Below, one piece after another: positions 57,530 through 63,400 of a DNA stretch of 64,000 bases. The notes beneath the pieces were generated by a model. It was not told where the DNA came from. It saw nothing but the letters and a program-made list of their open reading frames with translations, and made no database searches. The stretch's first letter is position 1. Each line of letters starts with the position of its first letter. A program made the position numbers and the translations under genes. The stretch comes from Cytophagaceae bacterium (lineage in GTDB: Bacteria; Bacteroidota; Bacteroidia; Cytophagales; Flexibacteraceae): assembly GCA_027485575.1 (NCBI GenBank), contig JAIXQU010000160.1, positions 1-64,000 of the forward strand. The letters run 5' to 3'.

Positions 57530-59941
57530 TTACTTATTCTTCACCCATTTATCAAGCCAGCTATCCATCTCCCAAAGCATGTGCATGATGTTTTCTCTGG
57601 CTGCATAACCGTGACTTTCAAAAGGTAGTAAAACCAACCGGGCCTTGCCGCCATTTCCCTTTATGGCCTGGAAAAGCCTTTCACTTTGCAGTGTGAAAGT
57701 TCCAGGATTGTTATCTGCATCTCCATGGATCAACAAAATCGGACTTGAGAATTTATCTGCAAAGTTGAACGGCGACATGGTATTGTATATTTTTTGCGCC
57801 TGCCAGTAATTTCGCTCCTCAGACTGAAATCCAAAAGGAGTTAACGTTCTGTTGTAGGCACCGCTTCGGGCGATACCAGCTGCAAACAAGTTGCTATGGC
57901 AAAGGAGGTTGGCCGTCATGAATGCGCCATAGGAGTGACCCATTACGGCGCATCTGTTTTTGTCCACCAAACCCAGAGAATCTACATATCGAATGGCCGC
58001 TTCGGCATCAGCAACAAGTTGCTCGTTGTAGGTATCGTTTGGTTCTTCAGTTCCTTTTCCGATTATGGGAAACTGCGCATCTTCCAGAATGGCAAAACCC
58101 CTGTTTACCCAATAAACGGGTGTGGCCCAATTGATAGAAATGAAGGTATGAGGCGATTCTTTAACCTGACCTGCTGCCTTATCATCCTTATATTCTGTGG
58201 GATAGGCTTCCATTAACATGGGTAATTTACCCGATTTGGCTTTGTCGTATCCGGCAGGCAAATACAAAGTAGCAGACAATTGAACCCCATCTTTTCTTTT
58301 ATAAAATATCTTTTGCTTGCTCACTTTAGCCATTGATTCATACGGATTTGGCCTGAAGGTAATTTGTCTTGGGGCATCCTTCTTTCCGAAATTCCGGATA
58401 AAAAGGTTCGGCATTGTTTTAGGTGCTTCTATGCTGGTAATCAATAGCTTTTTCTCTATATCCAATACCTTGACAATGGTTTCATAGGTAGATTTTCCAT
58501 CTGCCCTCCAAAGCCGCTTTGTCTTTTTGGTGGCAATTTCAAATTCATCCAGAAAAGGCTTATTTCCTTCGGGTGAGCATCCCTCTCCTTCCAGATATAG
58601 CTTTTTTCCATCTTTGCTAAACTCCAGAACTGGACGGTTCATGGCATTGAAAGTAGTGGCAAAGGCACCCGGGTCGCCATAAACATCTTCACTGCTTCGG
58701 TCAAAAATTAACTTTGGCTCCTGTTTTTCAAGGGATGGATTGATGGAATAAACCCTTGTATTCCTCGTTTTCCACCAGAAATCCTGGACTATGGCAAAAT
58801 CTCCCTTGCCAAAACTCATGTCAGATACCCGGTTTTTCAAATAGCAAATCGACTTTGGCTGTGTAAAAGGAGCATCCGCCTGAAAAATCTGGTCTCTGAA
58901 TTCAGACGGATTTTTAGGGTCGCCACCATCCGGGGCCTCCGCCCAAACCAAAGTAGCCGGCTTGTCGTCTCTCCATGAAATTTCTCTTTTTCCTGCTGCT
59001 ACAGCATCAAAATCAGAAGGAATTTTATCCTGCAGGGGCCTGTCATAAAATGTACTAAGCTTTTGACCATCAGAAGTATAAATATTAAATTGGCTGGCAA
59101 ATGAACCAAAGGTCAGCGTGTAACTATATGGCTGTTTTACTTCTTCGGACATCAGATTCTTTCCATCCGGAGAAAGAGAAACTCTTTTGTAAACTGCCTC
59201 GGGCAAAACGGTTTTTCCGGGAGTTCCGTTCAGATAAACCCTTGTGATATTGGCCATTGCATAGTAATCAAATTTGGCTTCATCCTGCTTGTTGCGCAAC
59301 AAATCCTGGAAAGTCCTTGCCGGGGCTTTGGTTCCGGTTGCATCCTGGGTGGCTGGTCCTTTGGGCAAAACCCGGGTATCGGGAAACTTTCCTTTTTCGC
59401 CTTTGGATTTAACCAACAGGCTTTGCCCATCGGCATCCCATTGAACAGGAGCGCCCACTACAGCATTCAAATGATGCGTATTTGTATTTTTGGCTATACC
59501 GGTTTTGAGGTCAAGAATCCAAAGTTCAAGGTCATTTGGTAAAACCTGAATAAAGGCAAGATGGGTTTCTTGCGGTGAAATGATCAGGCTTTGCATTTTT
59601 AGGTTTTGAGGCAACCCGGTCACAGGTATTTCTTTGGCATCCGGAAGACTAAACAGCTTTATTCCAGTGTAATAGGTTCCCCTTGCCTGGTTAAAATTTT
59701 CTGGATTTATCCGCAAACCTGCCAACCTAAGCTCTGGTTCAGCCAATTCATCCAGTGACTTGTAGAGCGGCCTTTCAATCTGCATCAGATATTTGTTTGA
59801 CTTTGTAATCAGATTCTGGGCTGGGGCTTTGGTGTCGGCCAATTCCAAAATTTCTTTTGGTGGCATTTGGTAATTGGTTTGGGCAAAAACATTTACCATA
59901 AAGGCAAGGCTTGCCAGACTAAGCAAATACTTAATTCTCAT
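57530..59941 (-). CDS. S9 family prolyl-oligopeptidase-like peptidase
   Basis: 803-residue exported serine peptidase (signal peptide ending near VFAQ). An N-terminal beta-propeller (about 60-540) covers a C-terminal alpha/beta-hydrolase with Ser670 in GHSYGAF, Asp743 in HGDADNN and His777 in ESHGYAA. The sequence around FGFQSEERNYWQA resembles the glutamyl-endopeptidase/CGEP branch rather than DPP4, so Glu specificity is possible but unproven. Its role is peptide processing in the periplasm or outside. Confidence 0.9.
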   Translation of the reverse strand: MRIKYLLSLASLAFMVNVFAQTNYQMPPKEILELADTKAPAQNLITKSNKYLMQIERPLYKSLDELAEPELRLAGLRINPENFNQARGTYYTGIKLFSLPDAKEIPVTGLPQNLKMQSLIISPQETHLAFIQVLPNDLELWILDLKTGIAKNTNTHHLNAVVGAPVQWDADGQSLLVKSKGEKGKFPDTRVLPKGPATQDATGTKAPARTFQDLLRNKQDEAKFDYYAMANITRVYLNGTPGKTVLPEAVYKRVSLSPDGKNLMSEEVKQPYSYTLTFGSFASQFNIYTSDGQKLSTFYDRPLQDKIPSDFDAVAAGKREISWRDDKPATLVWAEAPDGGDPKNPSEFRDQIFQADAPFTQPKSICYLKNRVSDMSFGKGDFAIVQDFWWKTRNTRVYSINPSLEKQEPKLIFDRSSEDVYGDPGAFATTFNAMNRPVLEFSKDGKKLYLEGEGCSPEGNKPFLDEFEIATKKTKRLWRADGKSTYETIVKVLDIEKKLLITSIEAPKTMPNLFIRNFGKKDAPRQITFRPNPYESMAKVSKQKIFYKRKDGVQLSATLYLPAGYDKAKSGKLPMLMEAYPTEYKDDKAAGQVKESPHTFISINWATPVYWVNRGFAILEDAQFPIIGKGTEEPNDTYNEQLVADAEAAIRYVDSLGLVDKNRCAVMGHSYGAFMTANLLCHSNLFAAGIARSGAYNRTLTPFGFQSEERNYWQAQKIYNTMSPFNFADKFSSPILLIHGDADNNPGTFTLQSERLFQAIKGNGGKARLVLLPFESHGYAARENIMHMLWEMDSWLDKWVKNK

Positions 59942-60068
59942 TGTTTGATTGATTTGAAGTTCAAATTAAAGGCGATTTCCTGAAAAGTAATTAGATTTGG
60001 GATAAGTGGTTTACTTGAAATGAATCCGGGAAAGTTGAGTTATTACAATTGACAGGTCGCAGCCTGGG

Positions 60069-60245
60069 TTCGAGCCTCTCGAATCAAAACTGCTTCGCAG
60101 TTCAACCATCGTCGATGTTTGGGTGTTGGGCACCCTGGTTGACGGCTACCGGATGGCTGCGGCCCGGATAGAATGGAAAGCCCGGACTGAGGGAGGCACG
60201 ACCGAAGGAGGACTTGAAGAGATAGCCGGAAATGTCCGCCCAAAT
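60069..60245 (+). ncRNA. GC-rich multi-hairpin island, candidate structured RNA
   Basis: Bases 60121-60240 are 62% GC (75 of 120), against roughly 40% in the neighbouring genes. Successive stems are visible: TTCGAG/CTCGAA (60069-60083, loop CCT), AACTGC/GCAGTT (60088-60102), CATC/GATG (60107-60117), GGGTG/CACCC (60121-60135), and a long-range CGGCTA/TAGCCG (60143-60148 with 60223-60228). GCCCGGA occurs twice (60162 and 60180). It may be a repeat element or structured RNA; strand is unknown. Confidence 0.4.
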
Positions 60246-60410
60246 GGTTTTAGAAATAGTCTTAATAAAGTGTTGATTGGCAACTCAATTTTGGCAATTG
60301 GTGCTTTTTGTGTTTTTGGAAAATGAACTTCCTGGCCTGTTTTGGCTAGAGATTGTCCGGTTGGGTTGGGTTTTTCCGAACATGTCAGATTTGGGTCTTG
60401 CAAAAATGAG

Positions 60411-60443
60411 AAAAACCCCGATGTTTATGTCATCGGGGTTTTT
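60411..60443. terminator. Bidirectional terminator after the gliding-type gene
   Basis: A perfect 13-bp stem (AAAAACCCCGATG at 60411-60423 with CATCGGGGTTTTT at 60431-60443), a 7-nt loop, and T runs on both sides. It ends the minus-strand gene that stops at 60465 and could also end a plus-strand transcript through the GC-rich island. Confidence 0.9.
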
Positions 60444-60464: not shown

Positions 60465-63400
60465 TTACCGTTGAATTTCTAACCAACCATTTTGCTCATC
60501 CACATTCGGAATCTTCAAGGTATAAAAATATGTACCGGGCTGGATTCCTTTTGCATCCCAATCGTTGTTATAAGAACCTGAATTGAAAACTTCTTCTCCC
60601 CACCGGCTTCTTACATTCAGTTTTGAACCCGGAGGCAGATTTCGAATGACGAAAATATCATTCAAACCATCCCCATTCGGTGTAAACAAAGTTGGGATAA
60701 ATAACTGGGTATCTTCTTCAATTTCAAGTTCTTTGCTCACTTCACAACCAATTGAATCCTGCACCAGAATTGTATATTTACCCGGATTTAGGTTGCCGAA
60801 AAGGGTATCCGGTTTGTAGCTAAAGAAGGAACCTTCATCAAAAGAAACCAAATAAGGAGCCACCGAACCTTTCACAGTATCTAACAAAATAGAACCTTGG
60901 GCAAACCCATTGGCCGAAGATTTGTATTGCCTGGCTGCAATGTTAATCTGGGTAGGCTGGGTTAACGAAATTGGAAAAACCCTGCTTGCCTGGCAAGCCC
61001 CATATTGTTGAACAATAAGGTTAAACTGGCCGGCAGGTAGTCCACCAAATTCAAATTTGTTGTTGAAGAAAATATTGCCAGGTATAGAATCTTGTTTGAC
61101 AAGTGTTCCTGAAGAGGCTTCAACCACTTTCAACGTTACAGGTCCGGTTCCATTCAGTGAATCTATCAAAACCGATCCTGAATTTTCTCCGAAGCATTTT
61201 ACGTTTTTCAAGCTGAATTTGAACCTGAGTGGGGAGTTTCCAGGAATATTAAAACTGGTATCATAGGCACAACCTGCCCCGGGACCACTGTCCGTCAAGC
61301 GTAGTGTATATGGATTGCCTGCCGCTCTTCTGGATAATCCCGAAAGTGTTAAAGTATCTCCTGCAAAAGACTTTAAAACGGTGAAAACATTTGGAATCGA
61401 ATCAAAAGAATATTTAAAACCTGGTTGCCCACCAGTAAACGTAAATTTGATTTTGCCGTCAAAGTTTTCACAAGTACTTGGTGTGATGCCGGCAACATTG
61501 AAGCTTACTCTATCTGGTGGCTGCACTACCCTTACATATTTGACCTCACAACCAGGAGTAGAAGCGTCATTTACAGTGATTCCGTACGTGCCTGGTTTTA
61601 ATTGACTAAACACTGAATCAGTTTGAACTTTTAGGATTTGACCCTGCTCATCATTTATAGTGAAATTATAAGGCTTTGTGCCTCCGGTTAACCCGGACAA
61701 CCTTACGATGCCATTTGTATCGCCAATACATGGTTTTACTACAACTACCTGCTGTGCACGAGGACTATTGCTTGGCAGATTGACAATGAATTGTTTGCTG
61801 CAATTGTTCGTGTCTGTAATTTGAAAAACATAATCACCACCTGCCAGATTGATTAATATACTATCGGCCGGAACGGTTACTGGTAAAAACACAGTGGCGC
61901 CCGGAAGTTTTACCTCCAGTTTTTTATCCCCTGCGCCTCCGGAGAATTCGAGTAGCTTAATTTGACCGGTAGGTGCAAAACACTGAGATTCAATAATCAA
62001 ACCAGCCGAAAGCTTAAGTGAATCAGGTTGAGAAATATTTACCAGGGCGGTATCTAAACAACCTGTTTGCAGGTCTTTAAAGAAAAGTTGAACCTGCCCT
62101 GCTCCAAATCCCTGGGGTATTGGGTTGTTAATTCCCACGGTAGAATAAGTGCCGGAATCACCACTGAGGCTATACTGATAAAGTCCTGAACCATTCCGCA
62201 CAGTGTCGAGCCTTATCTGACCATTAAACTGGCCATAACAAAGTGGAAGGGATGTAATAGAAACCTGTGCCTGAAGTGCGCCTGGAGCAGTTAAGGTCCT
62301 GACATTCTGTGTAAAACATCCGGAAATTGTATCTATTACTTCCATGGTGTAGGTTCCGGCTGGCAAACCTGTAAACAGTCGGGTGGTCGTGTAAGGGTCA
62401 GCTGGTCTGATTCTGAATTTATATTTATTCAAATCACCTGAAGCATCGGTAACCGCCACAAACTCCAGTTTTCCATCCGCTTGAGCGATACAAGGTGTTG
62501 GATTGGTAGAGGAAACTGAAACGGTATAGGCATTTTGAACGATGATATTAACTCCTGAAACTGTTGTAGAGCAAGCAGTTACTGAATCTTTTACCAAAAC
62601 TGAATAAGTGCCTGGTGTCAATCCAAAGAAAAATGGAAATGGCTGATTGGAAGGCCCATTGGGCAACAAACTATAATTGTATCTTCCGGAACCCCCGGAG
62701 GCCTGAGCCGTTATTGAACCCGTGGCGCCACCTGCACAATTTATGTTGGATGGTGTCACATTGACTTGCAATGAACAAGGCCGGCAACGAATATCTCCCG
62801 CAGGTAATACCGAAATATTCAAGGTGGCTGTACTGTCTTGTCCTTTTCCAAAGTTGGAAGGAACACATGTTAATGTAGTATCAAAAATGGCCACTGCCTG
62901 AATAAGTGCGCCATTGACCAAACCATTGAATGTAAAGAAGGTATCGACTGTGGTTGAAATCAACGTGTCGTTTCTCCACCATTGTACTTTGAAATCTACT
63001 TTTCCTTTCAGATTGGTTTGAACGCCAAATCGAACCGGGGTGTTAGGACAAATTACCTGCCCAGAAGCAGGGGAAATCTGTGAAATAGAAGTTGAAGCCG
63101 TAAATGATTCAATCTGAGTGACTTGTTGAATACCAGAAGTATCCGATTGTTTGATAATGCAATTGGAAATTAATCTTGAGAAAACCACCGCCCGCACGGT
63201 ATTCACTGGTAGCCCTGGAAATAAAATCAGCGTTTGATTGGTATCCGTTGGCAATTGCACTCCATTGACAATCCATCGGTAGCCAACATTTGGTAAATTA
63301 TTGATATTTAATGCTTTCAAGGTGGCAAATTGTCCGATACAAGCCTGAACTTTTATTGGGTCTATTCCAGCCAATGCCTGAAGATTGGATGGAATTATGT

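Follow-up and report, generated by a model that had tools for sequence, protein, structure and literature searches.

The window analysed here is a stretch of 64,000 nucleotides (64 kb) from a Cytophagaceae bacterium. A GC-rich island at positions 60069-60245 sits in the gap separating two large minus-strand open reading frames (ORFs). The first of these, 57530-59941 (−), is peptidase-like, with a weak match to the dipeptidyl-peptidase Dpp5 (67.8 bits against a cut-off of 900), and the second, 60465 to at least 63977 (−), has a T9SS sorting-domain match that is below threshold (31.3 bits against a cut-off of 35). An earlier sequence-only reading had placed a block of 62% GC between two large genes. 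Its position agrees with these ORFs and the block is real, its GC content being equalled or exceeded in 4 of 6383 sliding 177-bp windows, but the measured value is 56.5% (39.1% window-wide). ORFs running across the island, for example 60146-60403 (−), look spurious in our judgement also. The features of the gap are as follows.

60067-60085, plus strand: REP-type hairpin GGTTCGAG-CCT-CTCGAATC, from a pattern search of the genome
60088-60102, plus strand: small hairpin AACTGC-TTC-GCAGTT between both repeats, from reading; one of two 6-bp inverted repeats
60104-60122, plus strand: stretch with an exact counterpart in the C57 paralogue (19 of 19 bases by blastn), an upstream extension of this Flavo-1 subfamily
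60157-60241, plus strand: Flavo-1 homologue of type b (helix P1 and core, without side hairpin), from model R1 and RF01705
60159-60162, plus strand: 5′ arm of P1, GCGG, pairing with CCGC at 60236-60239, from model alignment and sequence
60236-60239, plus strand: 3′ arm of P1, CCGC, from model alignment and sequence
60411-60443, no strand given: terminator-like inverted repeat CCCCGATG..CATCGGGG with A and T runs, from sequence reading

The last of these had been called a strong terminator and is terminator-like in our reading; it may serve the gene ending at 60465 (−) and is separate from the repeats. At least four consecutive hairpins had also been described. Taken alone, the hairpins are not above chance: the RNA folding energy of the island is no better than that of shuffles (z 0.04 on the plus and −0.44 on the minus strand), and its two perfect 6-bp inverted repeats compare with 0.59 in shuffles, a count reached by 63 of 500. 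The structure is real nonetheless, as homology and covariation reveal. We find that the island is a composite of two unrelated dispersed repeats, both of known kinds, lying side by side. The earlier proposal was a "REP-like repeat or conserved structured RNA", a useful lead whose two halves apply to different parts of the island and of which "RNA" is the weak part.

REP-type hairpin and Flavo-1 homologue

The 5′ part of the island is explained by a hairpin family surrounding a REP-transposase gene on contig C120 of the same genome. The pattern GGTTCGAGN{2,5}CTCGAAYC occurs at 10 places genome-wide, seven on C120 and one each on C51, on C53 (93% identity over 28 bases) and in the window; the reversed pattern, searched as a control, occurs at 0. 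The seven C120 copies flank the transposase gene on both sides, and the hairpin at 60067-60085 is thus of a palindrome that is repeated in the genome and flanks a REP-transposase gene, which suits the REP-like half of the earlier proposal for the island. The product of the C120 gene matches NF047646 at 76.6 bits, just below the cut-off of 80, and two other transposases of this genome exceed that cut-off (94.7 and 121.5 bits). By sequence reading, the tetranucleotides GTAG and GTGG are absent beside the window hairpin; an excerpt of PMC6006769 describes TnpA-REP subclass 2.6 as likewise being without a GTAG/GTGG foot. On C120 one hairpin is found in a tandem array. The REP-transposase genes at L145, L142, L144 and L143 (on C120, C31, C189 and C121, respectively) each lie amid their own distinct hairpin repeats, and the transposase gene at L152 (G028:C3) lies amid other short hairpin repeats.

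The 3′ part, which carries the CCCGGAT motif, is almost certainly homologous to the Rfam family Flavo-1 (RF01705). At gathering thresholds Rfam returned no match in the window, and a permissive scan of 60130-60260 returned Flavo-1 as its sole match, full-length at 60157-60236 (+). This match scores 23.3 bits (E 0.0037) against a gathering score of 42, and by Rfam's own rule the copy thus stays outside the family. The sequence-only reading had tentatively likened it to CCCGGAT-containing islands in other Bacteroidota genomes. A BLASTN comparison, which the sequence-only reading had proposed as a check, finds a paralogue in the same genome on contig C57 (76% over 105 bases). Across the window's genome RF01705 has three matches above the cut-off and three more at 27.9-39.2 bits.

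A second model, R1, was built from A2, an alignment of 21 same-genus type-b copies that includes the C57 paralogue and leaves out both the same-genus type-a copies and the window copy. R1 has a single match in the 64 kb, at 60157-60241, with 60.4 bits and an E value of 9.5e-15. It also recovers all 57 loci of other genera picked by RF01705 (59 matches at E 0.01), so that R1 and RF01705 describe one family. Sequence and fold together thus indicate that the window copy shares descent with accepted Flavo-1 members. In the R1 alignment the window copy, itself ordinary, lacks both members of one helix-3 pair.

Fold and covariation of the family

The fold of Flavo-1 is kept by compensatory change. 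For the 18 pairs tested in A2, 92.3% of 376 cells are paired and covariation is 0.353, compared with 0.111 when shuffled (0 of 500) and at most 0.072 with slid partners. In A3, made of the 59 matches from other genera, covariation is 0.434 against 0.136 shuffled and 85.8% of cells are paired, values that lean towards the model since A3 was aligned to the same model whose pairs are counted; among the pairs of the same-genus model, the outermost one and the innermost two hold poorly there. The sequence-only reading had named as its refuter a single copy with neither covariation nor a transcript. The CCCGGAT part is instead multicopy, both in its own genome and in relatives, and the relatives covary.

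Comparison of the copies adds two helices to Flavo-1 and splits it into two structural types. A closing helix, P1, exists besides the Rfam core (P2). In type a, a side hairpin of variable length, P3, follows the core, and in type b, which includes the window copy, a short AAAT-like bulge replaces P3 by our reading. Neither P1 nor P3 is among the base pairs of the RF01705 model. For P1 we used a separate set of 82 type-a copies that match a fixed pattern, one of them from a viral contig and with the listed locus L409 left out; P1 was placed in all but 4. Its last pair in these 78 copies is T-A in 15, G-C in 47, A-T in 13, C-G in 2 and G.T in one. Best complementarity, with equal weight for G.T and A.C, decided the P1 partner, so the paired share is inflated and the ratio of these two mismatches is not. 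A reading as C-GNA-G is possible for 18 of the 32 short P3 hairpins whose loops have 3-5 bases, in 5 cases directly and in 13 if one extra G is allowed. Loops of this kind are unusually stable in DNA and are not unknown in RNA either.

Dispersal and mobility

Flavo-1 is dispersed, patchily and in widely varying copy number. At E≤0.01, RF01705 matches 14 of 59 genomes (the window's own and its relatives), with 5-9 matches in each of five same-genus genomes and 23 in G041. A sample of the phylum gives matches at E 1e-5 in 33 of 247 genomes, under strict filters and with 18 candidates scored per genome, which makes the copy numbers lower bounds. In the richest genus, two complete genomes reach at least 38 and at least 41 matches at E 0.001 (150 candidates scored in each, again giving lower bounds). 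The fixed type-a pattern is present in at least 119 stretches of the public genome set, and among the matches listed 76 of 80 are titled Bacteroidota or groups belonging there, such as Flavobacterium, Sphingobacterium, Mucilaginibacter, Chitinophaga, Tannerellaceae and Saprospiraceae. The other 4 of the 80 listed come from metagenome bins labelled Spirochaetales, Spirochaetes or Acidobacteriota (L351, L400, L375 and L403), where the pattern may reflect transfer or mis-binning. In one Tannerellaceae bin, Roe453_bin14, at least six contigs (L364, L383, L388, L414, L420 and L425) carry the type-a pattern, which suggests a copy-rich lineage in Bacteroidales. Among plasmid records, the window element has no match at E 1e-3 and the G041 element has 4; one viral contig carries the fixed type-a pattern. 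Sampled GC skew, computed as a check of replication-strand bias, was weak or irregular.

In G258 five same-strand Flavo-1 copies lie within about 31 kb (478-510 kb; L275 and L276), above the genome-average density. An integron-like array was considered for this cluster and set aside, since ordinary genes without a cassette array fill the one 16-kb stretch, out of 36 kb, whose ORFs were read.

R1 finds no copy beside the orthologues of the window's flanking genes in G001, where the two orthologues are on separate contigs, or in G002, where the peptidase gene alone was found; neither genome shows a clean empty site. The place of the window copy is thus not common to these relatives, through either gain or loss. 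Between the two complete genomes of the richest genus (15 and 15 loci compared), two pairs of loci are homologous on both flanks and three on one, and in both fully homologous pairs the differences between the stems are matched across the two arms. The retention of some copies at orthologous places points to a slow turnover or to their being of some use.

In G041, Flavo-1 is found inside a unit of 142-143 bp with 17-bp inverted ends and 4-bp target duplications. Of the units with both ends readable, 10 of 14 have identical flanking 4 bases (shuffled mean 2.3, maximum 7 in 2000). The carrier of Flavo-1 has thus transposed in this one genome, and the loci concerned (L077-L095) form a MITE-like family whose target duplications are NTAN-like. 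Inverted ends of this kind were found in no other copies inspected by eye. In the window an 11-nt inverted pair (91%) brackets the island, which could be a chance match.

RNA and DNA readings

Flavo-1 has no orientation bias with respect to genes. Between tandem genes (n=67) it is sense in 32 cases and antisense in 35 (p 0.81), and no gene-arrangement group departs from half. These counts derive from 124 copies entered, 100 of them with a called ORF of ≥100 aa on both sides, using crude ORF calling and with a few loci that are mutually orthologous; seven loci had been left out beforehand, either as blast-only, cut or weak (L096, L105, L106, L124 and L136) or for short flanks (L182 and L201). 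Placement is mostly intergenic.

We also compared pair types with those of 59 tRNAs from the studied loci, a control of a single family. The core helices, apical stems (those with ≥80% Watson-Crick pairs) and P1 of Flavo-1 contain 1806 Watson-Crick, 18 G.T and 15 A.C pairs, and the tRNAs 915, 69 and 7. The G.T share is 1.0% in Flavo-1 versus 7.0% in tRNAs (Fisher p 1e-17) and G.T:A.C is 18:15 versus 69:7 (Fisher p 4e-5), p values that overstate the difference because the copies are related. The tRNAs were kept at ≥14 of 17 standard pairs with G.T counted as good, which slightly favours G.T over A.C among them. In the apical stems alone, G.T outnumbers A.C by 7 to 1, which is the RNA-like direction and a ratio like that of tRNAs.

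In print, the part of PMC9723704 dealing with Flavobacterium psychrophilum describes Flavo-1 matches as indistinctly sense or antisense to transcribed regions, with many outside them. Taken with the orientation and pair-type counts and with the transposing carrier in G041, this remark suggests that a DNA element fits better than an RNA, and the balance tips somewhat towards the DNA reading. A partial literature search did not find Flavo-1 described as a repeat or mobile element.

The island combines a REP-type hairpin of the C120 family with a divergent Flavo-1, and we consider it probable, by a small measure, that the latter is a non-autonomous element that folds as DNA. One strand of Flavo-1, as single-stranded DNA or within a cruciform, would form a rod interrupted by purine-rich internal loops, with P1 closing it and, in type a, P3 at its side; whatever enzyme copies or moves the element may recognise it in this shape. 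The gap upstream of the peptidase gene is probably where the window copy arrived, or was retained, in this lineage, and the copy would have no designed role for either neighbouring gene. For the family as a whole we put forward, tentatively and at a little less than even confidence, that Flavo-1 is not RNA at all and that it is a non-autonomous DNA element spread across Bacteroidota, with a complex fold made up of P1, the purine-loop rod P2 and P3, the last often closed as C-GNA-G, bound as folded single-stranded DNA by an enzyme yet to be found.

The foremost alternative is that Flavo-1 is a structured small RNA or RNA domain, as Rfam has it (type: gene, sRNA), and that the window holds a divergent copy transcribed from the plus strand. 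The strong compensatory change would suit such an RNA, as would the tables of Weinberg et al. seen in an excerpt of PMC2864571, where Flavo-1 is entered as "y" (probably) RNA and "n" for cis-regulatory. A passage of a 2022 review (PMC9029176) names it among the most abundant small RNAs and there gives no function. In the richest genus five copies (L210, L215, L222, L231 and L232) have the sense orientation and end 15-23 bases short of a called ORF, so that some could act as leaders; by eye the ORFs that follow look like lipoprotein starts. Downstream of these copies, L215 is orthologous to L232 and L222 to L231. The even split of orientations (32 versus 35), the scarcity of G.T pairs with no overall excess over A.C, the transcript remark in the PMC9723704 excerpt and the carriage of Flavo-1 by a transposing element in G041 all count against an RNA, and we regard this alternative as rather unlikely.

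Alternatively, Flavo-1 could be a chromosomal protein-binding or cruciform site, or a hairpin acting generally on mRNA ends, kept for the cell's use and not for its own mobility. A fold maintained at orthologous loci by paired changes, in mostly intergenic positions, is what such a site would display, but its presence is patchy (33 of 247 genomes in the phylum sample, 14 of 59 among the own genome and relatives), its copy number varies widely and in one lineage it was multiplied by transposition, and we judge a cellular role of this kind improbable.

Far less probable is that Flavo-1 is the cognate REP of Bacteroidetes REP transposases. The idea was suggested by an excerpt of PMC6006769 in which TnpA-REP genes of subclass 2.6 are flanked by atypical structures with copies elsewhere, and there is one adjacent case (L152, G028:C3). 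This is the only Flavo-1 match at 69 Y1-transposase loci, Rfam finds none at the 20 REP-transposase-like loci, and the REP-transposase loci that were read have other hairpins, which leaves a REP transposase unsupported as the mover of Flavo-1. Chance GC-rich hairpins with no homology, which the folding energies would allow, are refuted by the E value of 9.5e-15 from a model that excludes the window copy, and have practically no probability left.

Returning to the non-autonomous DNA element, the family matters more here than the window copy, for its extended fold and for the evidence that the fold matters in DNA. Flavo-1 is an Rfam family of unknown function, and the observations above give reasons to re-file it as a DNA repeat. 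Other orphan "structured RNAs" might be separated into RNA and DNA folds by a simple test, the count of G.T versus A.C in their covarying helices. Should Flavo-1 prove to be a DNA element, a major bacterial phylum would contain a yet unknown enzyme that moves it.

Among known systems, the nearest is Flavo-1 (RF01705) itself: the window copy has its core strands, helix order and internal loops in a full-length alignment, and differs in scoring below the gathering score and in the lost helix-3 pair. The 5′ hairpin resembles the REP sequences of REP-associated tyrosine transposases (NF047646) in recurring on both sides of the C120 gene, but it is without the GTAG/GTGG foot and has few copies distant from the gene; Flavo-1 itself accompanies such genes at one of 69 Y1-transposase loci and at none of 20 REP-transposase-like ones. 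In G041 the short element that contains Flavo-1 has inverted ends and target duplications, as MITEs do, whereas around the window copy no comparable ends are seen, the 11-nt, 91% pair that brackets the island being perhaps a chance match. Flavo-1 resembles the attC sites of integrons in its conserved unpaired bases and its variable end, on what would be a folded single strand, but is scattered in both orientations, with neither cassette array nor integrase in the part of the G258 cluster that was read.
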